Assembly: GCF_012931685.1 (NCBI RefSeq)
Contig: NZ_JABANC010000005.1
Span: 1 to 64,000 of the forward strand
Length of the DNA stretch: 64,000 bases
From: Hanstruepera ponticola
GTDB taxonomy: Bacteria > Bacteroidota > Bacteroidia > Flavobacteriales > Flavobacteriaceae
Direction: 5' to 3'
This document shows positions 6,870 to 54,771 of the stretch, in pieces. Under the pieces are notes generated by a model that was given only the letters and a program-made list of their open reading frames with translations, made no database searches and was not told where the DNA came from. Position 1 is the first letter of the stretch. Every line of letters begins with the position of its first letter. The position numbers and the translations under genes were made by a program.

Positions 6870-8405
6870 CTAAAAAGGCACATCATTATCCTCTTCTGGC
6901 GCACCAAAAGCGTCATTTGGACTTGGAAAATTATCGGGCTTGAATGTGTTATCATTTGCGGCATCATTCATTTTTGAATGAAACTCATGGTCAAATGGCG
7001 TGTCAAAATCATCCAAATTATCAAATTTACCTAAATGCCCAATAAACTTCAGTCTGATATTTTCAAGTCCACCGTTTCTGTGTTTTGCTACAATAAATTC
7101 TGCTTGACCTTCAGTTGGCGAACGTTCTTCATCATCCCATTCGTCAATTTTATAATATTCAGGTCGGTAGATAAAACTAACGATATCAGCATCTTGCTCA
7201 ATAGCACCAGATTCACGTAAATCAGAGAGCAATGGACGTTTGCTACCACCTCGCGTTTCAACTGCACGAGACAGCTGCGAAAGTGCAATGACTGGCACGT
7301 CTAATTCTTTTGCCAATGCTTTCAAGTTTCTTGAAATCATAGAAATTTCCTGCTCACGATTACCACCATGACTACTACCACCAGTCATCAACTGCAAGTA
7401 ATCAATCATAATCAATTTAATACCATGTTGGGATGATAAACGCCTGGCTTTTGCACGTAAATCAAAAATAGATAAAGAAGGCGTATCATCTATAAATAAA
7501 GGTGCCTTTTCTAATCCTTTTACTTTAACGTTTAATTGTTCCCATTCATGCTTTTCCAATTTTCCAGTACGCAATTTTTCAGATGATAAACCTGTTTCAC
7601 TAGAAATCAATCTAGTAATTAATTGTACTGAAGCCATCTCTAATGAAAAGAATGCCACTGGAATGTTTTGATCAACAGCAATATTCCTCGCCATAGATAG
7701 GGTGAGTGCTGTTTTACCCATACCTGGACGAGCTGCAACAATTATTAAATCTGAAGGTTGCCAACCAGATGTGAGCTTATCAAGTTTGCCAAATCCTGTA
7801 GGAATACCACTTAAGCCTTCTTTATTGGAGATTTCTTCAATCTTCTTTTTTGCTTGAATAACTAGATCTTGAGCCGTTTCACTTGATTTTTTTATGTTTC
7901 CTTGTGTAACTTCATAAAGTTTAGATTCTGCTTTATCTAATAAATCAAAGACGTCTTTGGTTTCGTCATAGGAATCTTCAATAATTTCATTCGAAATTTT
8001 AATCAAACTACGCTGAATAAACTTCTGTAGAATTATACGTGCATGGAACTCAATATGTGCTGAAGATGAGACCTTTTGTGTCAATGAAATGAGGTAAAAA
8101 TCACCTCCAGAAACTTCCAATCTTGAATTTTTCTTTAATTGGCTCGAAACGGTTAATAAGTCAATAGGCTCACTATTCTCAAATAGTTGAAATATTGCCT
8201 CAAAAATATGTTGATGGGCTTCTTTATAAAAAGCATCAGGGCTCAAAATATCAATAACCTCATCGACTCCTTTTTTATCGATCATCATTGCTCCAAGCAC
8301 AACCTCCTCTAAATCAATTGCTTGAGGAGGTATTTTCCCTTTTTCAAGATTAATTAGAGTGCTTTTATCTACTTGATATCCTTTAATTTGGTTTGGTTGT
8401 TTCAT
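6870..8405 (-). CDS. dnaB: Replicative DNA helicase DnaB
   Basis: Hexameric 5'-3' helicase that unwinds DNA at the replication fork. In the 511-residue product the N-terminal helical domain (about 25-130, VVLGAMMIDKKGVDEVIDIL) binds primase. The RecA-like domain has Walker A AARPGMGKTALT (about residue 227), a Walker B region LIMIDYLQLMTGG, and DLRESGAIEQDAD. The length is slightly above the family norm because of a C-terminal linker of about 50 residues rich in Asn, Asp and Pro that ends in an acidic tip EEDNDVPF, closely resembling the SSB protein tail. Upstream lies a cluster of TGTTAATAAG motifs (8486-8515). Function is certain; the role of the tail is inference. Confidence 0.97.
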   Translation of the reverse strand: MKQPNQIKGYQVDKSTLINLEKGKIPPQAIDLEEVVLGAMMIDKKGVDEVIDILSPDAFYKEAHQHIFEAIFQLFENSEPIDLLTVSSQLKKNSRLEVSGGDFYLISLTQKVSSSAHIEFHARIILQKFIQRSLIKISNEIIEDSYDETKDVFDLLDKAESKLYEVTQGNIKKSSETAQDLVIQAKKKIEEISNKEGLSGIPTGFGKLDKLTSGWQPSDLIIVAARPGMGKTALTLSMARNIAVDQNIPVAFFSLEMASVQLITRLISSETGLSSEKLRTGKLEKHEWEQLNVKVKGLEKAPLFIDDTPSLSIFDLRAKARRLSSQHGIKLIMIDYLQLMTGGSSHGGNREQEISMISRNLKALAKELDVPVIALSQLSRAVETRGGSKRPLLSDLRESGAIEQDADIVSFIYRPEYYKIDEWDDEERSPTEGQAEFIVAKHRNGGLENIRLKFIGHLGKFDNLDDFDTPFDHEFHSKMNDAANDNTFKPDNFPSPNDAFGAPEEDNDVPF

Positions 8406-8573: not shown

Positions 8574-9527
8574 TTACCCTTTAAAAACACCCATTTCCAA
8601 ATATTTTTCCATTCTATTTGACACCAAATCTTTTGGTGATAAGTTTTTTAATTCATCATGAGTTTTCAAAATAGTATCTCTAACCGCTAAATATGTTTTT
8701 TCACGATCATTGTGAGCACCACCAAGTGGTTCTTTAATAATTTCATCAACCAGTTTCAATCGCTTCATATCTTTTGCCGTTAACTTCAGAGCATCTGCTG
8801 CTTGTTCTTTATATTCCCAACTTCTCCAAAGAATGGATGAACAGGATTCAGGTGAAATAACAGAATACCAAGTATTTTCAAGCATAAGAACTCTATCTCC
8901 TACACCTATACCCAAAGCACCTCCAGAAGCACCTTCACCAATTATAACCGTAATGATTGGTACTTTTAGGCGTGTCATTTCCAAGATATTTCTGGCAATG
9001 GCTTCACCTTGCCCACGTTCTTCGGCTTCAAGTCCTGGATAAGCACCAGGTGTATCAATTAAAGTAATAACAGGTATTCCAAACTTTTCGGCAGATTTCA
9101 TTAATCTTAAAGCCTTTCTATAGCCTTCAGGATTTGCCATTCCAAAATTGCGATATTGTCTGGTTTTGGTATTATATCCTTTTTGTTGACCAACAATCAT
9201 AAAACTTTGATCTCCGATTTTTCCCAAACCACCAATCATGGCTTTATCATCCTTAACGTTTCTATCACCATGTAATTCCAAAAAGGAATCACCACAAAGC
9301 GCTTTGATATAATCTAAAGTATAAGGCCTGTTAGGGTGACGAGACATTTGTACACGCTGCCAAGGCGTTAAGTTTTTATATATCTCTTTTTTGGTAGCTA
9401 ATAATTTTTTTTCAATCTGTTTACAGGTCTCTGTAACATCAACATCACTTTCTTCACCAATAACCTGACATTTTTCTAGTTGCTCTTCTAATTCTTTAAT
9501 AGGAAGTTCAAATTCTAAATATTCCAT
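8574..9527 (-). CDS. accA: Acetyl-CoA carboxylase carboxyltransferase subunit alpha
   Basis: Alpha half of the carboxyltransferase that moves the carboxyl group from biotin to acetyl-CoA, the first committed step of fatty-acid synthesis. The 317-residue product shows the family features in order: [15 protein letters not shown] at the start, [20 protein letters not shown], the CoA-site region [23 protein letters not shown] (quoted in part: [18 protein letters not shown]), and [20 protein letters not shown]. Length is typical. It is a stand-alone gene with its own terminator and a -7 box at 9559-9566. accB, accC and accD are not in the window. Confidence 0.97.
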
Positions 9528-43172: not shown

Positions 43173-44321
43173 TTAAACTACTGATTTATAAACAGCTCTT
43201 GTTTGAACTGCTATATTTGCCCATGTAAGTTGGGATACAGATTTTTTAATATCAGTTTTAATTGTTTTTAAATATTCTCTTTCCTCGTATAGATGCATGA
43301 TTAGGTCAGCCAATTCACCTGGAGTTTCTTTCGTCATAATCCAACCTGTTTTATTCTTTTCGATAACATCAGAAACACCATGTTTCTGCCCAATAATTAT
43401 TGGCAAGCCACAAGCTAGTGCATCTGTGGCTGCACCACTAAAAGCTTCAACATAAGATGTAGTAATATATAGGTCCGATGACCTGTACCAATTTATAAGA
43501 TCAGCATATGGAGGATTCAATTTATCCGCATTAGATTTAGGAATTCTACCAGGTAAAACAATCTTATCTGTAACATCATATTTAGAAGCTAATTCAGCTA
43601 GATTGGTCTCAGGACCAACACATACACATTTGATTTTTTTTACGGTCTTTAATTTTTGTAATGCTTGAAATAGTAAATCCATCCTTTTTACAGAACTATT
43701 TCTACCTACTGATATCAATACAAAATCCTCTTCTGACAAATTATGACTTGGTCTCTGGTTGATAAAATTTATCTCATTAATTTTATCAATTAAGATTCCA
43801 TTATGTATGACTTCAATTTTATTAGGGTCTGCTCCTAAATCAACCATATTTTCCTTATTTAATTGACTTACAGCAATTAATTTGTCTGAATTCTTAATAG
43901 TATATTTTAATTTTTTCATTAAATCTGGGTAAAGCTGTGCACCATAATCAATCTCTCTAACCACCTGAACATCAGCACCTCTTGAATGCGCGATAACTGG
44001 CAAACCTTTGGTTTTTCCTAATTTAACCGCAGTAAAACCTCCACCATGCAGCATGGGCCCATGAAGCACATTTACTTTTTCTTCGTTAATCATTTTTAAG
44101 CGGTTTTGTTTTAAGAGCCAAGGCGTAAAACGCCAAAAACTCTTTGACCGATAACAACTATAGGGATATTCAAAATCTTTTGGTACTTCTGGTAATGTTG
44201 CACAAGCTACTGAAGCAGTTACATCATTCAAGTTATTTAGGCTTAAAACTAAATTATGGACTGCGTACTCCATACCGCCAAGTCTCGGATAATGATTATT
44301 CATAATAAATCCAACTCTCAT
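43173..44321 (-). CDS. Glycosyltransferase family 4
   Basis: A 382-residue GT-B retaining transferase: VGFIMNNHYPRLGGMEYAVH at the start (the glycine-rich acceptor loop), FVLISVGRNSSVKRMDLLFQ for the donor domain, and acid motif YVEAFSGAATDALACGLP (E-x7-D) near residue 290. Overlaps the deacetylase-like gene by 4 bases and is 2 bases from the MBOAT gene. Donor unknown. Confidence 0.9.
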   Translation of the reverse strand: MRVGFIMNNHYPRLGGMEYAVHNLVLSLNNLNDVTASVACATLPEVPKDFEYPYSCYRSKSFWRFTPWLLKQNRLKMINEEKVNVLHGPMLHGGGFTAVKLGKTKGLPVIAHSRGADVQVVREIDYGAQLYPDLMKKLKYTIKNSDKLIAVSQLNKENMVDLGADPNKIEVIHNGILIDKINEINFINQRPSHNLSEEDFVLISVGRNSSVKRMDLLFQALQKLKTVKKIKCVCVGPETNLAELASKYDVTDKIVLPGRIPKSNADKLNPPYADLINWYRSSDLYITTSYVEAFSGAATDALACGLPIIIGQKHGVSDVIEKNKTGWIMTKETPGELADLIMHLYEEREYLKTIKTDIKKSVSQLTWANIAVQTRAVYKSVV

Positions 44322-45310
44322 GAGGTATAATGCTTTTTAATTTCAGACATACCGATTAAAGAAACATCCATTTCTTTTGTTAACCATTCTAAATAGGAAT
44401 CCAATCTATTAATAATTTTATTCATGTTTTCTAGCTTCATACTATATGGACTCATGCCTAATTCAAATTCATTACTATGAAACATCATACATAAAAAAAC
44501 ATTCTTTCCATTAGAAAGCTTTAAAAAATCTTGCGTTAATACTTTCATTTCCTCAACATTAGAGTAAGTAGGTCTTAACCATTTTGGTTTAGAAAACCTT
44601 GTAGTATAATTGAATAAAATGTGCTGGTAAGATGTATTTAATTTTATTTTTCTTTTTATTGATAAAGGAACTTTTGATAGCGTTCTATTCATTAACGAAA
44701 CTGGCACCTGTAGTATGCGCATATCTCCTTCTTTTCTAAAATCTTTATAAGATGGATAGTAAGGCTGGTAGGGTGATCCAAAAAAATTAACAGAATTACC
44801 ATTTTTGTTATTCCATTGTAAATCTGGTGTTACTGAACTATCCACAGTATATCCTAAATCCTCTAAAAATCTCAACGAATACTTACTTATCCCAAAACGA
44901 CCTGCTCTAAATGACAGCGGTTGATAACCAAATGTGTCACTAAATAATGTAGTTAAATTTTTAAGTTTTTCCTTTTCAATATCGGGCTTAAAATCACTTT
45001 GGTAGTGCTTGGTGTTATCAGCATTAAAATTTGCTTCTGGTTCAATAAATTCTGAATGTAAATGTGTTCCTAACTCAACTTTATTTCCAAAACTTTTAAA
45101 AATCTCAACAGATTTTGAATCTTGAATAACTTCAGGGCTTAACAAATAGGTTGCTTTAACATTATATTTCTCAAATATAGGTTGCAAGTTTTTCACAACC
45201 CCATTATAAATATTAATAAAGGATAATGGCTGTTTAACTTTCCATTTAGCACCTTTATCACATTCAGTATCTATGGTAATTGACAAGTATATTTTTTTAC
45301 TTTTGCTCAA
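44318..45310 (-). CDS. Polysaccharide deacetylase-like (NodB fold) protein
   Basis: A 330-residue protein beginning YLSITIDTECDKG, which places the catalytic/metal Asp of a carbohydrate esterase 4 fold, followed by a His-x-His metal pair in KVELGTHLHSEFIEPE and LSFRAGRFGISKYSL. These fit NodB-type de-N-acetylases or the related WalW-like proteins of exopolysaccharide loci. It has no signal peptide, so action on a cytoplasmic lipid-linked intermediate is more likely than on the exported polymer. Substrate unknown. Confidence 0.8.
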   Translation of the reverse strand: MSKSKKIYLSITIDTECDKGAKWKVKQPLSFINIYNGVVKNLQPIFEKYNVKATYLLSPEVIQDSKSVEIFKSFGNKVELGTHLHSEFIEPEANFNADNTKHYQSDFKPDIEKEKLKNLTTLFSDTFGYQPLSFRAGRFGISKYSLRFLEDLGYTVDSSVTPDLQWNNKNGNSVNFFGSPYQPYYPSYKDFRKEGDMRILQVPVSLMNRTLSKVPLSIKRKIKLNTSYQHILFNYTTRFSKPKWLRPTYSNVEEMKVLTQDFLKLSNGKNVFLCMMFHSNEFELGMSPYSMKLENMNKIINRLDSYLEWLTKEMDVSLIGMSEIKKHYTS

Positions 45311-45313
45311 AAT

Positions 45314-46333
45314 CTATTCGTTTTTGTCTATACGCATATAGTGCATATTTTTTAAGTCACTATCTAAAAACAGTTTATTTTCTCCCACATACTTCAATAA
45401 CGTCTTTATATTATGCTGTGAAAGATTAAAGCCATTCTCATTAAAAACACTTTTGGTTTCATCAAAATTATTTCTGATTACATTGATGTGCTTTACTCCT
45501 TTGTTACGCCAGGCTAAATCAACAATATATTGTAGTAACTTATTCATGTGATGGCTATGACCTTTGGTAAATAAAAAGTCTATTATGTAAATTTTGCTAG
45601 TACTCAATTGTAAAACTGTCGCAGCTCTCAAAACCTGATCTTCATCATAAGTTCCCAATATAGTATATTCACCTTCTGGCTTATCTAAACGCCATTTTAA
45701 GTGTGAAAGTGATTTATCAAAATAAATATCAAATTTTCCCTTATTTGAATTTATGAAAGCATGATAATCTACTAAATCAATTTCTTTAACCGATGTCTTA
45801 CTTCCATTTATTTTCAACCCTTTGATTTTATAGATGATACTATTAACAATGTTGATTGGTTTAAGAAGATTATGGCCAAATCGTATTCGTTTTTGAGCTT
45901 TGAAGGTGGAGAAAAAATCCTGATAGCCTAATTTCATTAATGCTCTCCTTGATTTCTCATTTCCAGTACTGTAAACAAAACTGACGTCAATAATTTTGGA
46001 ATGTGATACGCATTTATTAAGCATCCGTTCAAAAAGGCCATAACGTCTGTAATCTTTATGTGTTGCTCCATCACATAGCAATGCAAATCTCCATTCTTTT
46101 CCAGAAATAACTATTTTATTCACAATCATTTGTATGGTCGCAACGCATAACTTATTATCATAAATACAAAATGTGTATTCCTCTACTTCGTATTCTTTAT
46201 CAAGATTATGTTTCCATCTGTAATATTCAGTTGATTTACTAAAATTACTCTGTAAAAGTTCCAAAAACATTGAAACTTCTTTTTTAGAGCTTTTATCTAA
46301 TAATTGAATAATATAATTACTTTCTTTTTCCAA
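45314..46333 (-). CDS. GNAT-like acyltransferase
   Basis: A 339-residue protein with a GNAT/FemAB-like core: WRFALLCDGATHKDYRRYGL and FERMLNKC near residue 88-110 match the acetyl-CoA pyrophosphate-binding region (here with YRRYG), followed by YSTGNEKSRRALMKLGYQ. A second half (about 190-320) looks like a repeated domain. In a polysaccharide operon it may N-acylate an amino sugar. It overlaps the flippase gene by 17 bases and is 3 bases from the deacetylase-like gene; deacetylation then re-acylation by this pair is an attractive inference. Confidence 0.75.
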   Translation of the reverse strand: MEKESNYIIQLLDKSSKKEVSMFLELLQSNFSKSTEYYRWKHNLDKEYEVEEYTFCIYDNKLCVATIQMIVNKIVISGKEWRFALLCDGATHKDYRRYGLFERMLNKCVSHSKIIDVSFVYSTGNEKSRRALMKLGYQDFFSTFKAQKRIRFGHNLLKPINIVNSIIYKIKGLKINGSKTSVKEIDLVDYHAFINSNKGKFDIYFDKSLSHLKWRLDKPEGEYTILGTYDEDQVLRAATVLQLSTSKIYIIDFLFTKGHSHHMNKLLQYIVDLAWRNKGVKHINVIRNNFDETKSVFNENGFNLSQHNIKTLLKYVGENKLFLDSDLKNMHYMRIDKNE

Positions 46334-47771
46334 TCCGCTCTTTTTTAAATAATCGTATTCTATTTAATAAATCCATGAATAATAGTTTCTCGAAAAAATA
46401 CAATAGCACAACAAACAATAATAAACCAATTACTAATTGTATTGAAAGTGCAATTGGAGAAATAATTTCTATAAAATTGATGCTATAAACACATACAAAA
46501 ATAATGATTGACATGATTATTGCCGATTTGACAGCTAACAAGGCACCGTTTTTGTAATCAATAATACGATTAAAGTAATAAGCTGTATAAATCCAACCGA
46601 ATAAGGCACCTAGCAAATAACCAGTTATCAATCCGTAAATACCATAATCCTGCATTAAAAAATACATTATTGGCAACGAACACACCACCTCAACAATTGT
46701 TGATATGAAGATAACTCGTGACTTTCCTTTTGCTATAATGGCACTTCTTAAGATATGTGAGAGACCTCTTAACAACCCTACTACTGCTAAAATCATTAAG
46801 TAACTACCTGCCTCCTGCCACTTTGTGCCATAAAAAGTTGGTATTAAATTATTACTAATAGCCATTAACATGACCATAAAAGGAATAAAAAGAATGGAGG
46901 TTAAGTTAAGTGCTTTAATATAATTACTTCTAAACTTTTCAACTTGGTATTGAAGCTTTGAAAACCCAGGGGTAAGAACACTTGTCAATACCGACTGGAT
47001 TTTAGTAGCAGGTACTATAGCTAAATTATAGGCTATATTAAATAATCCCATAATTTCTTTACCTAAATAACGACCGGTTAAAAGACCAATCATATTTTCA
47101 GCAAAAAAATACACGATATGAGCACCAAGCATATTAATCCCGAAGTTAAAAAATGGTTTTATACCTTTAAATTCCGGTTTAGAAGGCAACCATTTTCCAA
47201 AATAAAATGATAATGCTCCAAAAATGATTCTTTGAATGATCAATCGCCAAACCAACGACCAAACACCAAAACCATAAAATGCCATAATTATCGCAATGAT
47301 ATTGGATATAACCATTGAAGATATTTCAGCTATTGAGAACCCTTTAAAATCCATTCGCTTTTTCAAAAGAATATTAGGAAATTGAAACGTTTGTAACAGT
47401 ATAACAAATCCTAAAACTTGAATAATAGGCTTTAATCCGGGTTCTTCAAAAAATGACGCAGCTAAACCAGATCCGAAAACAACAATAGCCGTTAAGAAAG
47501 TATTTAAAGCAAGTTGAACATAAAATATAGCAGAAATTTGGCCTTTAGTAATTTCTTGACTTTGAATAATAGCTGCACCAAAACCAATACTTGTTAATGC
47601 CTTCACAAAACGATTAACAATAAGTGCCATAGCAACCAAACCAAAATCACCTCTTGTTAATAAACGAGCCAACACAATGGTAAACACAATCTGAAGAACT
47701 TGTTGTGCTATATCTGCACTACCTCTCCAAGCCAATCCACTAAAAACTTGTTTTTTTAATGTTTTTTGCAA
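46317..47771 (-). CDS. Polysaccharide flippase (Wzx/WzxC-like, MOP superfamily)
   Basis: A 484-residue membrane protein with about 14 helices. The start (KKQVFSGLAWRGSADIAQQV) and LARLLTRGDFGLVAMALIV match the WzxC/TuaB group of polysaccharide exporters. It flips lipid-linked repeat units to the periplasmic side, where the Wzy-like protein polymerises them. It is the first gene of the 20-gene minus-strand operon, with a promoter at 47825-47853. The C-terminal tail is basic (RLFKKERIGKRK). Confidence 0.9.
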   Translation of the reverse strand: MQKTLKKQVFSGLAWRGSADIAQQVLQIVFTIVLARLLTRGDFGLVAMALIVNRFVKALTSIGFGAAIIQSQEITKGQISAIFYVQLALNTFLTAIVVFGSGLAASFFEEPGLKPIIQVLGFVILLQTFQFPNILLKKRMDFKGFSIAEISSMVISNIIAIIMAFYGFGVWSLVWRLIIQRIIFGALSFYFGKWLPSKPEFKGIKPFFNFGINMLGAHIVYFFAENMIGLLTGRYLGKEIMGLFNIAYNLAIVPATKIQSVLTSVLTPGFSKLQYQVEKFRSNYIKALNLTSILFIPFMVMLMAISNNLIPTFYGTKWQEAGSYLMILAVVGLLRGLSHILRSAIIAKGKSRVIFISTIVEVVCSLPIMYFLMQDYGIYGLITGYLLGALFGWIYTAYYFNRIIDYKNGALLAVKSAIIMSIIIFVCVYSINFIEIISPIALSIQLVIGLLLFVVLLYFFEKLLFMDLLNRIRLFKKERIGKRK

Positions 47772-47938: not shown

Positions 47939-47946
47939 TACCTTTG
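47939..47946 (+). promoter_or_regulatory. -7 box of the type IX secreted protein gene
   Basis: TACCTTTG on the plus strand, 64 bases before the ATG at 48010. No clear TTG lies at the normal -33 distance. It is divergent from the flippase promoter, about 100 bases away. Confidence 0.4.
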
Positions 47947-48009
47947 AATATTAAATTGCCTATGATAAGGGTTTACCTCATCATTAACAGGATATTAATA
48001 AAAGCTATT

Positions 48010-51000
48010 ATGAAAAAAATCTACTATTTATTATCTACATTGTTATTAACTTGTGTTTGTTACAGCCAATCAGTAATTGTAACAATTGATAGAGAAAACG
48101 GTCCTGGACCTACTGCTACTGGAAATGTAGGCACCATTTCTTCAATGGGTTTAACAAGAGGTTCTGGTATAGAACAAGCAGGTACACCTGATTTTGCTTC
48201 GAGACTATGGGATGGAAACAACAGGGTTCAAGCCCAAAATAATAATGAATACATTCAATGGTCAGTTACTGCAAGTGCTAACAACAGTATAAATATCAAT
48301 CAAATTGAATTTAAATTAAGACGTACAATTGATGGTCCAGCAAATTTTAGATTGTACTACAGTACGAACAATTTTGCTACTAATGGAACTGCGGTCAATG
48401 GTAACACTAGCCTTCCGGCGGAAACAGATACCACTTACAGTTACAGTGGTTTAAATATAGTCTCTGGAACTGGACAAACCATCACTTTTAGACTCTATGC
48501 GTGGAATGCATCTGATACTAGTGGTTTTTTAAGATTTAGGTCAACTATTTTTTGGGCAGATTACGGTATCGATCGCCCTGGTATTCGCCTTTTTGGGAAT
48601 GTTATTGTTACTACTCCCAACAGCATAGAATCCAATATTGTTACTTCAGCAGTTTTCAACCCAACTGACAATATTAATTACCAATTGTATAATACTACAT
48701 CTGGCCTTACAACGTCCAACTCGATTAAGATCGGAGAATTTGTGATTCAAGATGGTGGTGATGACCTAAATGACCCTGATGCTTTACCAACAATTTTAGA
48801 GGATTTGGAATTTAATATTGATGGTTTTGAAAATCTAGCCACTTTAGCTGTTTTTGATGGCCTAACAAATGTTGGTGAAACAACTATCAATAGTGATACG
48901 GCATCGTTTACAGGTCTTAATGGAGGTAGCGGTATTAGTACTCCAGATAATAGCTCAAAAACCTTCAGTGTGCACGCTACTTTTAATAGTACAGTATCAG
49001 ATAACGACCAAATACAACTTGCTATAACTGCTGCCTTGGCAGATGCAACTAACGGATCCTCATTTTTTCAATTTGATGCAGGAGGTGCTGTCACACCAAT
49101 TGATGGAGACGATAACAGAATTGAAGTGACGGCTTCAGAAATAATATATGTTCAACAGCCTTCAGATGTTAATCAATTTGAAGTAATGGCTCCATACCCA
49201 GCAATCAATGCCATTGATTCAAATGGTAATTTGGATGTTGATTTTAATGATATAATCAGTGTCACAGCTACGGGACCTTTAGATCCTCCTTTAATTTCTT
49301 ACAGTATAATTAATGGTATTGGTGTTTTTGATACCATAGCATTTTCTGAACAAGCTACAGGAGTTACATTATTAGCAACCCCTACAGTATTGCCAACTAT
49401 AATTAGCGATACATTTAATATTCTAGGTCCTATAGTTACAATAGCTATTCAAGATTTTGACATGTCATCTCCTGAATGGACATATACTAGTGATGTAGCA
49501 TTTTTTGATAATGGTTGGGGGATAGATGGCTATTTTGGACCTATTGATATAGACAGTGCTGCACCTCTAGATTACCAATTATTTTCCAATAATATTTTAG
49601 GTGAAAATGACTTGGATGATGAGGGTGACAATGGTACAGCTGATTTTGCGACAATTACATTTGATGATATAGACATAAGCATGTTTGACAATGTACAAGT
49701 TCGTTTTGATTGGCAAGTTATTGGTTATGCAAATTCAACTGATGATGCCAAATATGAAATTTTCTATGATGGTGTTGGGCAAGGAGAAGTATATTTATTA
49801 GATGGTTTTGTAGATTTTGAGAACGATTCTGGTTCTGTGTTAGTTAATGTTCCTGACAGCGTAGATACAGTAAGCTTAGTGCTCAAGATAAGAGATGATG
49901 GAACAAATGCCTATTCTGGCTTCGACAACTTTAAAGTAGTTAGTGTTTTTGATGGTCTTATTTATGCCAATAATTCCTGGACACCATATGCTCCATCTGA
50001 CGTTACAGGCCTTGAAAATGCCTATGTAAGAGATGGTAACTACATTGTAGGAACAGATATTGAACTAGACAATTTGTTTATTGAAGCTGGTGCTAATGTG
50101 AGTGTTTCTGAAGGACAATCCATTCTAGTCAATAACAATATTTACAATGGAGGCCTTTTACAATTAAACTCAATTTCAACAAGCTTTTCCAGTTTAATTG
50201 TTGATGGTGAATCTTATGGAGCTGTAAGATATAGTAGATATACAAATCAAAATGCTGCTTCTGGAGGAAATGATTTGGTTTCTGCACCTGTTACAGGGCA
50301 AACGTTTAGTGATTTTGCTGTAGAAAATATCAACTTATATGAAAATCCGACCAACCCAACAGAAAAATTATTCGGACCTTTTGATAAAGTTACAGGTTTA
50401 TACTTAACTTATGATACAGCTATCCCTGCTGAAGCAGCCGTAGTTCTTGAACCAGGAATTGGTTACAGAGCTGCAACTAGCGATGGTAGTAATTTAGATT
50501 TTACTGGAACAATAACAACAGGATCTCTAGATGTTCCAATTGTTATAGCAGGACCTAATAACCCTGAATGGAACTTAATTGGAAACCCATACCCATCTTA
50601 CTTATCATTATCTGATTTTTTAGCTATTAACAATTCATTATTTGATACTGAAAGTTCTGGAATATATGGATACGATGGTAATGCTTCTGATGGCTGGACT
50701 ATTTGGAATCAAGCATACTCTGATGCCAATCCAGGGGCAGTACTTACTCCTGGTCAAGGATTTTTTGTTGCATCAGCTGTGGCAAGTGGAACGGTGTCCT
50801 TTACACCAGATATGAGAGTAAATGGAAATTCAGATGATTTCATACCTGGGAGAGTTTCTAATCCAGAACCAATTGAACATTTAAAAATCCAACTTTCAGG
50901 TAATAACCAATCCTACAATACCGATTTTTACTTTACAGACAACGCTACATTAGGTTTGGATTCGGGTTATGATGCTAGTATCTTTGGTGGTGTTGCACCA

Positions 51001-51561
51001 AGTTTTTCAATTTACTCACATTTATTAGAGGAGAATGTTGAACGTGACTATGCTATTCAGTCATTAGGATATTCAGATTTTTCAGATGTAACAATTCCGT
51101 TGGGAATTAACGCTAATCAAAATCAAGAAATTACTATATCAATTGTAGAATCTACATTACCAGAAAGCGTTGATGTTTATTTAGATGATACAGTTGCCAA
51201 TACGGCCACTTTATTGAATAATGAGGACTACACTATCACACCCTCAGTGGATTTAAATGGAACAGGTCGTTTCTTTTTAAGGTTTTCTGATGCTTCTTTA
51301 TCAACCGATGAGTTTATTGATAGTAACAATATTCAAATTTTTGCAACTATCAATCCTAAAAGCCTGTTTGTAAAAGGAACTTTAGATAGTCCTACAAATA
51401 TTAAAATTTATGATATGCAAGGACGAATTGTATTGAATACTAATTTGAATACTGCTAGCAACTATAATCAAGTTGACCTGTCTAATTTACTTTCAGGAGT
51501 TTACAGTGTCTCATTATCAAACAAAACCCTATCAAAAACAGAAAAAATAATCATTAAATAA
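48010..51561 (+). CDS. Large surface protein with type IX secretion sorting domain
   Basis: A 1183-residue secreted protein. I start at the ATG at 48010 (MKKIYYLLSTLLLTCVCYSQ, a clean signal peptide) instead of the upstream TTG at 47944, which would add 22 residues and sits on the -7 box. The body is beta-rich, Asp/Asn/Ser/Thr-rich and contains several sandwich-like regions (e.g. GEFVIQDGGDDLNDPDALP, DNGWGIDGYFGPIDID). The last 75 residues form a type A sorting domain: IKIYDMQGRIVLNTNL, VDLSNLLSGVYSVSL, TEKIIIK. It should cross the outer membrane by the type IX system and be anchored or released. Function of the body is unknown. Confidence 0.88.
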   Translation: MKKIYYLLSTLLLTCVCYSQSVIVTIDRENGPGPTATGNVGTISSMGLTRGSGIEQAGTPDFASRLWDGNNRVQAQNNNEYIQWSVTASANNSININQIEFKLRRTIDGPANFRLYYSTNNFATNGTAVNGNTSLPAETDTTYSYSGLNIVSGTGQTITFRLYAWNASDTSGFLRFRSTIFWADYGIDRPGIRLFGNVIVTTPNSIESNIVTSAVFNPTDNINYQLYNTTSGLTTSNSIKIGEFVIQDGGDDLNDPDALPTILEDLEFNIDGFENLATLAVFDGLTNVGETTINSDTASFTGLNGGSGISTPDNSSKTFSVHATFNSTVSDNDQIQLAITAALADATNGSSFFQFDAGGAVTPIDGDDNRIEVTASEIIYVQQPSDVNQFEVMAPYPAINAIDSNGNLDVDFNDIISVTATGPLDPPLISYSIINGIGVFDTIAFSEQATGVTLLATPTVLPTIISDTFNILGPIVTIAIQDFDMSSPEWTYTSDVAFFDNGWGIDGYFGPIDIDSAAPLDYQLFSNNILGENDLDDEGDNGTADFATITFDDIDISMFDNVQVRFDWQVIGYANSTDDAKYEIFYDGVGQGEVYLLDGFVDFENDSGSVLVNVPDSVDTVSLVLKIRDDGTNAYSGFDNFKVVSVFDGLIYANNSWTPYAPSDVTGLENAYVRDGNYIVGTDIELDNLFIEAGANVSVSEGQSILVNNNIYNGGLLQLNSISTSFSSLIVDGESYGAVRYSRYTNQNAASGGNDLVSAPVTGQTFSDFAVENINLYENPTNPTEKLFGPFDKVTGLYLTYDTAIPAEAAVVLEPGIGYRAATSDGSNLDFTGTITTGSLDVPIVIAGPNNPEWNLIGNPYPSYLSLSDFLAINNSLFDTESSGIYGYDGNASDGWTIWNQAYSDANPGAVLTPGQGFFVASAVASGTVSFTPDMRVNGNSDDFIPGRVSNPEPIEHLKIQLSGNNQSYNTDFYFTDNATLGLDSGYDASIFGGVAPSFSIYSHLLEENVERDYAIQSLGYSDFSDVTIPLGINANQNQEITISIVESTLPESVDVYLDDTVANTATLLNNEDYTITPSVDLNGTGRFFLRFSDASLSTDEFIDSNNIQIFATINPKSLFVKGTLDSPTNIKIYDMQGRIVLNTNLNTASNYNQVDLSNLLSGVYSVSLSNKTLSKTEKIIIK

Positions 51562-51568
51562 TTAAACA

Positions 51569-51614
51569 ATCAGCACATTAAATAGTTTTACCTCTTTAAT
51601 GTGCTGATATTTTA
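51569..51614 (+). terminator. Terminator after the surface protein gene
   Basis: A 14-bp stem, ATCAGCACATTAAA (51569-51582) with TTTAATGTGCTGAT (51595-51608), a 12-base loop and a weak T-rich tail. It ends 8 bases after the stop and separates this gene from the triad that follows. Confidence 0.75.
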
Positions 51615-51663
51615 ACTAAAAACTATTAAGCTCATATAATTTATTTATTTTTGAAATGATTTA

Positions 51664-51671
51664 TATATTTG
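51664..51671 (+). promoter_or_regulatory. -7 box of the small-peptide triad
   Basis: TATATTTG at 51664-51671; a second match, TATTTTTG, is at 51646-51653. Neither has a good TTG at -33. If the 51664 box is used, transcription starts after the ATG at 51676 and the in-frame ATG at 51688 would be the start of the peptide. Confidence 0.4.
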
Positions 51672-51675
51672 TACC

Positions 51676-51867
51676 ATGAACGAAAAAATGTCCAAAAACC
51701 AAATAACACGTAAAGAAGCGTTAAAAAAGATGGGGAAATACGCAGCTATTACTGCGGTGGGTACATTTTTAATTTTAAGTCCCAAAAAAGCACATGCTAC
51801 ATCACCTCCTGATCCAGGTGGAGGGTTTGGTAGAGAAAGTAATCCTGAAGATTTATTTGAAGAATAA
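51676..51867 (+). CDS. Small signal-bearing peptide, possible precursor
   Basis: A 63-residue product (59 if started at the ATG at 51688). The N-terminal part is basic (KNQITRKEALKKMGKYA), followed by a hydrophobic stretch (AAITAVGTFLILS) and a probable cleavage site after KKAHA. TRKEALKK is a weak variant of the twin-arginine motif. The remaining 22 residues are Pro/Gly-rich then acidic: TSPPDPGGGFGRESNPED plus LFEE. The gene is 2 bases before the kinase-like gene. The layout of leader plus short core next to peptide-modification-like enzymes suggests a precursor peptide, by inference only. No function can be stated. Confidence 0.65.
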   Translation: MNEKMSKNQITRKEALKKMGKYAAITAVGTFLILSPKKAHATSPPDPGGGFGRESNPEDLFEE

Positions 51868-51869
51868 TT

Positions 51870-53003
51870 TTGGACAGTTATATAGCTCCTGAACTAGTTA
51901 AAACAATAAATGGAGTCAATATTTTATGGTTTGAAAATTCAAACAAATATATTTTGATGGATGATACTAACCTATCTCTATTAAATTACTTTTTAGATAG
52001 TTCAAATAAGCAAGAATTCACAAAGCGCCTTTCCAATCCGCTGATTATTTCTGAAGAAACCTCACATCGTGTTTATGAGGATTTAAAACAGCTTTTATTA
52101 CAATGCAACAGCCTTCCCAACGAAGCATTAAAGTCTGAAATTCCACTTGACACATTTCAATTTACTAAAACAGTTACTTATCACATAAAAAACAAACTAT
52201 TAGAAGTTTGTTTTAGCAATGACTTAATTAAACAATTAATCCATCCACAGTTCAAACACCTTGAACACGAAACCACTAAAACAGCTGACTTTACATTTCA
52301 TGTAGCATCCAAAGATAATTTGCTGTATTTATTTACTAATAGAAATCATAGTGAATCATTTAAAAAGTCTGACACCCACTTACTTCAAGGTAAATTTGCC
52401 ATGGAATTACTTTGTTTACTTACCAACAGCCTTGAGGATGACTGGCTAGGCACATTCCATGCATCCACAATTTCTAATGAAAAAGAAGCAGTAATGCTGC
52501 TTGGTAAATCTGGCAAAGGAAAAAGTACGCTGTCGGCTATATTGATGCACAATGGCTTTAATCTTATTGCTGATGACTTCACACCAGTCTTAGCCAAAAC
52601 CCAATCTATTTATACGTATCCCTCTGCCATATCCCTTAAAGAAGGTTCGTTTAAGGTTATAGAAAATTATATAGATGACTTTAACGATATTGAAACAATT
52701 GATAGCCATACAGCTAAAGGAAAAATTAAATACATCACGCCGTTAAATAAAGTAGGCTTAAATAATATACCTTGCTACAAAATGGTACTAGTTAATTACC
52801 AAAAAGATGTACCTACTACTATTGAAAAAGCACCTATTGAATCAGTCTTAGAAACATTGATTCCAGATTCTTGGCTTTCACCTAAAACCGAAAATGCTAA
52901 ACTTTTTTTAAATTGGCTAGAAAAAATCACTTTTTACAAACTCACTTATTCCAATAATAACGAAGTTATTGATATATTTAAAAATGAGTTACTTACTAAT
53001 TAG
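51870..53003 (+). CDS. HPr-kinase-like ATPase with possible PqqD-like N-terminus
   Basis: A 377-residue protein read from a TTG at 51870, 2 bases after the peptide stop; the next ATG would cut the first 28 residues. The central domain (about 190-340) has a Walker A loop MLLGKSGKGKSTLSAIL, LIADDFTPVLAK and TYPSAISLKEGSF, the pattern of HPr kinase/phosphorylase-like proteins that phosphorylate Ser or other hydroxyls. The first 85 residues (VNILWFENSNKYILMDDTN, LNYFLDSSNKQEF) have the layout of a PqqD-like peptide-binding domain; this match is by eye and uncertain. Such kinases occur beside RiPP genes, for example in the paeninodin lasso-peptide cluster. Confidence 0.72.
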   Translation: MDSYIAPELVKTINGVNILWFENSNKYILMDDTNLSLLNYFLDSSNKQEFTKRLSNPLIISEETSHRVYEDLKQLLLQCNSLPNEALKSEIPLDTFQFTKTVTYHIKNKLLEVCFSNDLIKQLIHPQFKHLEHETTKTADFTFHVASKDNLLYLFTNRNHSESFKKSDTHLLQGKFAMELLCLLTNSLEDDWLGTFHASTISNEKEAVMLLGKSGKGKSTLSAILMHNGFNLIADDFTPVLAKTQSIYTYPSAISLKEGSFKVIENYIDDFNDIETIDSHTAKGKIKYITPLNKVGLNNIPCYKMVLVNYQKDVPTTIEKAPIESVLETLIPDSWLSPKTENAKLFLNWLEKITFYKLTYSNNNEVIDIFKNELLTN

Positions 53004-53031
53004 TATCCGTTTATAGAACACGTTTATTATT

Positions 53032-54063
53032 ATGGCATCATTACACGAAACGTATAAATACATTGCTGATATTATTAGTTTTAAAAGTGATTTAGCTCAA
53101 CTACAAGATAATATAACTTCCAAAAGGATAGACTGGAGCGATATTGTTAAAGTTGCGAGTGATCATTTGGTTTTAACAACAGTTTATTGTCGCTTAAAAG
53201 ACAAGTCTCTATTACAATATCTTCCAGAAGACCTTAAAGATTATTTAACTGAATTAACAGCCATAAATAGAAACAGAAATGATGTCCTCGTAGAAGACAT
53301 TACAGAAATCTCTAAATTATTTTCTACAAATCATATTAACCATGTTTTTTTAAAAGGTGCTGCAATAATCATATCTGGTTATTACGAAGACTCTGGTGAA
53401 CGCATGATAGGAGATATTGATATTTTAGTTGAAAGGTCTCAAGTTAACCTAGCTAAAAAGCTACTTATCACAATGGACTATCTTCCTGGCGACATACTAT
53501 TGAGCGAAAAATATCAAGACAAACGACATATTCCAAGACTTGTAAACGAAACAAAACTAGCTCCTATTGAAATTCATACTGAACTACTAATGAAAAAACA
53601 CCTTAACAAATTAAGTTCAAAGGATGTTTTAATTAAAAAACAGTATGTTAATGGAGTTTTTGTGCCTCATGCTAGCCATCTTTTGAATCATTGCATATTA
53701 AGTTTTCAAATTAATGATAATGGTAATTACTTCAACTCTATACATTTAAAAAACATCTATGATAGTTTAGTAATAACAAAAAAGCATCAAAGTCTAGCAA
53801 TTCAATTGCATGACAATGCCTATCAAAAATTTTTCCTTTTTAGTTCAATATATTTTCAAGATATTCAAAAGCCCAATCAAACTCTTAAAAACAAAATACT
53901 TTCAAGATGCTTTGTTCTCAACACAAAGAATAATACCATAGGCTTACTTAAGACTCAGTTCTTAAAAAACATCTTAAATATGAAAGTATTAATAAATAGA
54001 TTTTTATTGTTTTTAAAGAACAAAAATTACAGAGCAGATTTAATACAATCGTTAAAGCAATGA
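53032..54063 (+). CDS. NTP_transf_5-type nucleotidyltransferase
   Basis: A 343-residue protein with the uncharacterised nucleotidyltransferase pattern: VFLKGAAIIISGYYEDSGER, then MIGDIDILVERSQ (the Asp-x-Asp metal site, about residue 128) and PIEIHTELLMKKH near 185. It belongs to the family often found next to HPr-kinase-like genes and PqqD-like genes in polysaccharide and RiPP loci. The expected reaction is transfer of a nucleoside monophosphate to a small molecule, peptide or sugar; the target is unknown. It starts 28 bases after the kinase-like gene and is the last of the triad. Confidence 0.78.
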   Translation: MASLHETYKYIADIISFKSDLAQLQDNITSKRIDWSDIVKVASDHLVLTTVYCRLKDKSLLQYLPEDLKDYLTELTAINRNRNDVLVEDITEISKLFSTNHINHVFLKGAAIIISGYYEDSGERMIGDIDILVERSQVNLAKKLLITMDYLPGDILLSEKYQDKRHIPRLVNETKLAPIEIHTELLMKKHLNKLSSKDVLIKKQYVNGVFVPHASHLLNHCILSFQINDNGNYFNSIHLKNIYDSLVITKKHQSLAIQLHDNAYQKFFLFSSIYFQDIQKPNQTLKNKILSRCFVLNTKNNTIGLLKTQFLKNILNMKVLINRFLLFLKNKNYRADLIQSLKQ

Positions 54064-54192: not shown

Positions 54193-54771
54193 ATGAATAA
54201 ATATGTTTTTATAGGATTCTTTTTTATATCCTCATTAATGTCTTCTCAATCTATCAATTTGGACACAGATGTTCCATGGACAATTGGGGTTGGTGTGAAC
54301 ATTGTTGATAACGATGGTTTTAGATTTGATGATCCATTTGATGCAGATAATTGGAATTTTAAAAATCCTTTATCAATAAATGTTGAAAGAAAATGGCGTG
54401 ATTTTTTTTCAACTAATCTTGCAATTACACTGAATAAGCTTACAAAAGATAATAAGCAAAACAACGGTTATTTAACAGAATCTAGCAATTTGTTTGCTAT
54501 TGATTTAACAGGACGTTTCATATTTGATCAATATATATGGGAACAAAACCCTAGGATAGACCCTTTTGAAGGTTATGTTCTTGCTGGATTTGGCTATACA
54601 TCAGTATTAAGCAAAGACAGTATGATGTTTGATGTTGGTTTAGGTTTTAACTTTTGGTTGTATGAAGATATAGGTATTAGATTACAAACTATGGGTAAAT
54701 TTGGATTCAATGACTATCAATATCTAAAGAATTACATTCAACACACTGCAGAATTTATTATTAGGTTCTAA
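54193..54771 (+). CDS. Outer-membrane beta-barrel protein
   Basis: A 192-residue protein with a signal peptide (MNKYVFIGFFFISSLMSSQ) and alternating strands typical of small outer-membrane barrels: WTIGVGVNIVDNDGF, LSINVERKWRDFFSTNLAITL (in part), FEGYVLAGFGYTSVL, MFDVGLGFNFWLYEDIGIRL (in part), and a final aromatic-ending strand HTAEFIIRF. It may be the OmpA-like surface barrel I recall near capsule loci in this family. Role unknown. Separate from the triad by 129 bases and followed by a terminator. Confidence 0.8.
   Translation: MNKYVFIGFFFISSLMSSQSINLDTDVPWTIGVGVNIVDNDGFRFDDPFDADNWNFKNPLSINVERKWRDFFSTNLAITLNKLTKDNKQNNGYLTESSNLFAIDLTGRFIFDQYIWEQNPRIDPFEGYVLAGFGYTSVLSKDSMMFDVGLGFNFWLYEDIGIRLQTMGKFGFNDYQYLKNYIQHTAEFIIRF

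Follow-up and report, generated by a model that had tools for sequence, protein, structure and literature searches.

In lasso peptide clusters, the kinases PadeK and ThcoK phosphorylate a C-terminal serine, as does PsmK, and PsmN adds a hexose to the phosphoserine; the residues His-Lys-Asp-Asp are essential in these kinases (PMC9266682). In LPPs, LppK phosphorylates Ser3 of the core, and the S3T and S3Y variants are not phosphorylated (Popov et al. 2026 Nat Commun, PMC13381572). The trio of a PqqD or RRE component, an HprK-like kinase, and an NTP_transf_5 enzyme is already known from LPP clusters, from lasso clusters, and from the NCBIfam HPr-rel-A models. The initial annotation of the locus described here had considered that a known non-peptide substrate for this kinase family would argue against a peptide target. 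None was found in the papers searched, where PadeK, ThcoK, PsmK, and LppK phosphorylate a peptide serine. Literature searches on T9SS combined with RiPPs, and on the HPr-rel-A system, found nothing relevant.

The locus was identified in a 64,000-nucleotide stretch of DNA from the marine flavobacterium Hanstruepera ponticola (the window). It resembles LPP clusters (PMC13381572) in its short precursor with a conserved N-terminal part and a highly variable C terminus, an HprK-like kinase with an adjoining NTP transferase, an RRE (here predicted by fold), SPase I-type leader cleavage (here predicted), a serine near the cleavage site (core position 3 in LPPs, position 2 after AxA here), and its location within a polysaccharide locus. 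In contrast to LPP clusters, the RRE-like domain forms part of the kinase rather than being a discrete protein, and the YxxPxVLxHQxIxFETxxS leader is absent, its place being taken by a hydrophobic Tat/Sec-like sequence, [TS]RKEAxKKMGKYAAxTAxGTFxILNPxKAQAxS. Clustering of the neighbors of 60 loci showed no conserved SipW-like peptidase or MsbA-like exporter, a type IX-secreted (T9SS) protein and a beta-barrel gene are present instead, and the system occurs in Bacteroidota and Alphaproteobacteria, whereas LPPs occur in Bacillota. Membership in the LPP family was rejected on the basis of the leader motif, the discrete RRE, the dedicated peptidase, and the exporter.

As in paeninodin and pseudomycoidin clusters, where the enzyme acts on a peptide serine, the kinase carries His-Lys-Asp-Asp, and the NTP_transf-type enzyme recalls PsmN of pseudomycoidin. 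However, the peptide is linear with a candidate serine near the N terminus of the core, not at its C terminus. The genome contains no Transglut_core3 match and so no B2 protease, as the initial annotation had concluded when it excluded a standard lasso cluster, and the ORFs surrounding the locus in the window include no lasso cyclase; the lasso reading was rejected on both grounds. The HPr-rel-A models (TIGR04352 HprK_rel_A and TIGR04353 PqqD_rel_X) likewise involve a PqqD partner and a nucleotidyltransferase neighbor, but the kinase scores only 73 bits against a curated cut-off of 200, and its PqqD-like component is, judging by fold, fused. The idea that the system was undescribed must be narrowed: the enzyme trio is known, but the precursor family, its signal-like leader, the surface-protein partner, and the spread over two phyla were not found described.

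Gene layout and the precursor peptide

The gene order proposed from the sequence (peptide, HPr-kinase-like ATPase with a TTG start two bases later, and NTP_transf_5 nucleotidyltransferase) matches the ORF coordinates on the plus strand. The 63-residue precursor is encoded at 51676..51867, the 377-residue RRE-kinase at 51870..53003, its TTG start at 51870 lying two bases past the peptide stop, and the 343-residue transferase at 53032..54063. The three genes stand as a unit, but the extent first given to it (51646-54063) does not, since the functional unit is larger and includes two partners that had been missed. Upstream is the gene of a type IX-secreted surface protein (47944..51561, plus strand; 1205-residue ORF; Por_Secre_tail 1.4e-10), whose true start is likely the ATG at 48010 (MKKIYYLLST). 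Downstream, an outer-membrane beta-barrel-like protein of 192 residues (54193..54771, plus strand) matches OMP_myx_plus at 1.5e-5, under the cut-off. The minus strand at 43173-47771 carries polysaccharide genes, namely a flippase and glycosyltransferase, deacetylase-like, and acetyltransferase-like genes, the last three identified by eye or on weak matches.

A terminator-like hairpin (51569..51608, plus strand; −19.9 kcal/mol, z = −5.9) follows the T9SS gene, and a Bacteroidota-type −7 box, TATATTTG (51664..51671, plus strand), precedes the peptide gene. The peptide, kinase, and transferase genes therefore probably form a single transcript, adjoining the T9SS gene yet separate from it. The TAnnTTTG box was found 5′ of 56 of 65 kinase-linked peptide genes versus 2 of 18 kinase-less ones and 12% of random windows. 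Since TATATTTG ends about 4 bases 5′ of the peptide ATG (51664-51678, and likewise upstream of position 7001 in the related locus L097), this group may produce a leaderless mRNA.

As judged from sequence comparison, the 63-residue ORF is a real gene: over its first 49 codons, comparison with the two nearest relatives gave a dN of 0.018 and a dS of 0.59 (dN/dS of about 0.03). No NCBIfam or Pfam model matches it, but a scan of 84,980 species (one genome per species) returned 412 relatives; the 79 loci kept apparently all belong to Flavobacteriales or to less precisely labeled Bacteroidota, and no bacteroidotal relative was found outside Flavobacteriaceae in a class-wide sample of 295 genomes. 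The predicted AHA site (residues 39-41) and the 22-residue tail TSPPDPGGGFGRESNPEDLFEE agree with the ORF. AHA ends a conserved leader (residues 11-41; 51706..51798, plus strand; TRKEAxKKMGKYAAxTAxGTFxIL(N/S)PKKA(Q/H)A), its AxA resembling a signal peptidase I site. R12 and A15 are fixed in all 114 distinct peptides covering those sites, and T26, A27, L34, and P36 in 115/115 distinct flavobacterial peptides. The Tat-like start that had been proposed needs a correction. A true twin-arginine motif is lacking, since R12 is followed by lysine or, in 8 of 114 peptides, by asparagine or threonine, and never by arginine in the 114 flavobacterial peptides covering the site. Despite the presence of TatC in the genome, this argues against classical Tat export.

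Aligning the peptides for a conserved core after AHA had been suggested, and one residue past that site proved invariant. Ser43 (codon 51802..51804, plus strand), two residues past AxA, is serine in 115/115 distinct peptides and never threonine (entropy zero), whereas position 42 varies more than most of its neighbors. The rest of the tail varies in sequence and in length (about 10 to 60 residues), apart from a loose Pro/Asp/Gly patch. Ser43, which we infer to be the phosphorylation site, is not the sole conserved hydroxyl, as T26 and T30 are likewise (nearly) invariant.

Relatives in Alphaproteobacteria

The peptide-and-enzyme set has relatives in a second phylum, among rhizobia and further members of the Alphaproteobacteria. 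Alphaproteobacterial relatives of the kinase came to light when plasmid records were searched at the protein level, for which HprK_rel_A is again the nearest family. Small ORFs of 70-103 residues, several of them unannotated, were present in 12 of the 13 loci read, with a layout similar to RRxFLxxxGxFAxxTPPxxTxLLSTSLxSxAIAKSGG, and a transferase adjoins the kinase in most. Flavobacterial and alphaproteobacterial peptides match in a profile-profile comparison (E = 2.7e-8), and R12, G20, A23, L34, A39, and S43 are invariant in the joint alignment, Ser43 aligning with serine in 12/12 alphaproteobacterial peptides. Unlike the flavobacterial peptides, these carry a true RR. In Leisingera and Ensifer, the peptide gene is located beside a large cadherin/Ig/RTX-type gene, and a polysaccharide export gene is also nearby in Leisingera.

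Sinorhizobium meliloti 1021 pSymB encodes a related peptide, RRKFLKSCGRFAIVTPPTVTMLLSTSLTSNAIAKSGG, at 1319047-1319355 (9048-9356 of the stretch retrieved, minus strand), and no recognized kinase gene was seen near the peptide in that stretch. On a plasmid of Methylosinus sp. C49, a kinase relative has efflux genes and an NRPS adjacent, and no recognizable peptide was found near it.

Because the leader has the general features of a Tat/Sec signal, part of the likeness between phyla may be due to export-signal features. Carried further, this would make the two peptide groups unrelated Tat-signal mini-proteins, alike through twin-arginine export alone, and the flavobacterial system a separate one. 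The consensus RRxFLKxxG is indeed Tat-like, two alphaproteobacterial peptides have weak TAT_signal matches, and TatC is present in the H. ponticola genome. However, the AxA-x-Ser spacing, A23, T26, and L34 are shared beyond what Tat export entails, the same three-gene context recurs, and the flavobacterial RK, RN, or RT is poor for Tat, so that we see little chance of this explanation being correct.

The enzymes and their linkage to the peptide

Residues 190-377 of the RRE-kinase form an HprK/PEPCK-type kinase domain. Hpr_kinase_C (Pfam) matches at 2.8e-5, under its cut-off, and the closest NCBIfam model, HprK_rel_A, at 1.8e-20. The structural model (pLDDT 93.9) matches PEPCK (E = 4e-9) and HprK (2e-4). 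The catalytic motif (52458..52577, plus strand) comprises H197, GxSGxGKST at 212-220, and D235 D236; it is invariant in 50 kinases, H197, K218, D235, and D236 corresponding to His-Lys-Asp-Asp. The Walker A motif read from the sequence alone is part of it, and the NTP_transf_5 assignment with a DxD motif was equally well founded: the transferase matches PF14907 at 1.6e-30, and D128, D130, E180, and H182 are invariant in 36 relatives.

The initial annotation had also suspected a PqqD-like fold in residues 1-85 of the kinase. Sequence and profile searches of Pfam, NCBIfam, and PDB yielded no significant match to the N-terminal domain, and fold comparison alone was informative. Modeled on their own (AF2), residues 1-92 adopt three strands and three helices (pLDDT 83.8), and the first seven Foldseek matches in the PDB are all RRE proteins of lasso and sactipeptide systems (TbiB1 with a leader peptide, and CteB, an enzyme of sactipeptide synthesis), followed by PqqD, FusB1, ThcOx, and McbB. 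The E-values are weak (0.07-0.8), but the ranking is consistent and no rival fold was repeated at comparable probability. In two of four alphaproteobacterial kinase relatives scanned (Methylobacterium and Ensifer), Pfam PqqD exceeds its cut-off at the N terminus, and no stand-alone PqqD match was found elsewhere in the H. ponticola genome. On the strength of these models, residues 1-80 (51870..52109, plus strand; beta-beta-beta-alpha-alpha-alpha) are predicted to be a PqqD-like RiPP recognition element; leader binding is inferred from it, without binding data.

The expectation that the peptide would be conserved alongside the enzymes was met in 400 Flavobacteriaceae genomes. The kinase was present in 36, the peptide in 40, and both in 35 (Fisher p = 9e-44), such that 35/36 genomes with a kinase carry the peptide versus 5/364 of the others. 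The single genome with a kinase but no peptide is interrupted at a contig edge, and the five peptide-only assemblies are 82-92% complete. Among 125 peptide genes in related loci (some genomes being counted in both collections), a T9SS-tail gene lies directly upstream on the same strand in 118; the kinase is downstream of 93 and the transferase of 91. In 60/60 loci, the transferase gene is followed immediately by a relative of the beta-barrel gene. Since the H. ponticola genome encodes 73 T9SS tails and one peptide gene, the T9SS-peptide pairing appears specific, and a chance neighborhood was rejected (1 of 73 tails beside a peptide, against 118 of 125 peptides with a T9SS gene upstream). No distinctive sorting domain was seen in the partner proteins, which look like ordinary type A tails and often have further T9SS proteins in tandem with them.

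The substrate of kinase and transferase could instead be a carbohydrate or lipid belonging to the adjacent polysaccharide locus, the peptide being merely a co-regulated membrane or signal peptide. Polysaccharide genes are found at 43173-47771, beside some related loci, and beside the Leisingera and Parasedimentitalea loci, and no native donor has been proven for NTP_transf_5 enzymes. We nevertheless consider this prospect still slimmer than fortuitous Tat likeness: it leaves the RRE domain, a peptide binder, without a role, it does not account for the near-perfect co-occurrence of peptide and kinase, the peptide is constant whereas most loci lack a constant adjoining sugar gene, and a peptide serine is the target of the characterized kinase relatives.

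Kinase-less T9SS-peptide pairs exist, one locus has the kinase apart from the T9SS-peptide pair, and two genomes with no peptide beside the kinase and transferase carry 2 and 6 peptides elsewhere. Kinase-less pairs and such distant peptides suggest that the enzymes act in trans, although this remains an inference. HprK is a bifunctional regulatory kinase acting on a protein. Citing this precedent, the kinase-less pairs, and a leader conservation that could come from binding of the T9SS protein, one might take the peptide for an unmodified secreted or membrane-anchored T9SS chaperone, the kinase regulating it or the T9SS protein by reversible HPr-like phosphorylation, but this is the most doubtful of the alternatives, as the NTP_transf_5 gene that nearly always accompanies the kinase is not needed for reversible signaling, the tail past AxA varies in length and sequence except for Ser43 and a loose Pro/Gly patch, and a similar peptide occurs in Alphaproteobacteria, where T9SS is not known.

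Several loci depart from the common arrangement. Tandem T9SS arrays precede one peptide gene in L104, L109, L120, and others, and a single peptide may serve several surface proteins. Genome G322 (L091, L179-L183) has one kinase-transferase locus and, away from it, six T9SS-peptide pairs. Locus L134 contains three peptides and two T9SS genes, together with an additional short kinase fragment of 86 residues, perhaps a decayed duplication. In L052 (G040:C1:3440235-3441351), the kinase is read as two overlapping ORFs (298 residues and a C-terminal piece), probably through a frameshift in the genome or the assembly, and in L062 (7782-10085) the enzymes are swapped, the order being T9SS, peptide, transferase, and kinase.

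Proposed pathway and significance

Our preferred reading, to which we give a probability of roughly 0.7, is a RiPP-type phosphopeptide system in which leader binding by the RRE, phosphorylation of Ser43, and extension by the transferase are followed by export, release by signal peptidase I, and action at the surface. Judging from its fold, the N-terminal domain of the kinase would bind the conserved leader. By analogy with LppK and with PsmK/PsmN, the kinase domain would place one or more phosphates on Ser43, and the NTP_transf_5 enzyme would add a nucleotidyl or sugar group to the Ser43 phosphate. The leader may double as a Sec or Tat export signal; housekeeping signal peptidase I, which was found elsewhere in the genome, would cut after AxA and free the modified peptide, about 10-60 residues long, into the periplasm, where it could act at the cell surface with the co-encoded type IX-secreted and outer-membrane beta-barrel proteins. 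The gene linkage, the kinase fold and catalytic residues, the invariance of the serine, and the occurrence in a second phylum are what the sequences and models show; the peptide's part as substrate is deduced, as are the chemistry, the modified residue, the way out of the cell, and the function at the surface, there being no biochemistry for any member. The gene set thus probably phosphorylates and then decorates, by inferred modifications, a very small exported peptide encoded next to one particular surface protein. A further idea, which we put forward only as an unlikely possibility, is that the modified peptide serves as an anchor or acceptor of ribosomal origin, coupling surface proteins to surface polysaccharide or lipid, shared by two phyla with different secretion types; the surface proteins concerned would be T9SS proteins in Bacteroidota and the cadherin, Ig-like, or RTX proteins encoded beside the peptide in some alphaproteobacteria.

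Dedicated models exist in annotation libraries for HprK-like kinases that come with PqqD proteins and NTP_transf_5 enzymes, yet no known substrate was found for this branch. Because the precursor is strongly conserved and its invariant serine sits exactly where cleavage by a signal peptidase would leave it exposed, the question of the substrate can be tested directly, and Sinorhizobium meliloti, which is genetically manipulable and has an alphaproteobacterial version, would be useful for genetics. The findings suggest that a RiPP leader may double as an export signal and that peptide phosphorylation may be tied to a defined surface protein. As it is stated not to be known what LPPs and paeninodins do biologically (PMC13381572), such a partner would provide a functional handle. 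With a conserved peptide-enzyme set beside a surface protein and relatives in Alphaproteobacteria, the locus seems to encode a previously unnamed peptide tag linked to the building of the bacterial surface.
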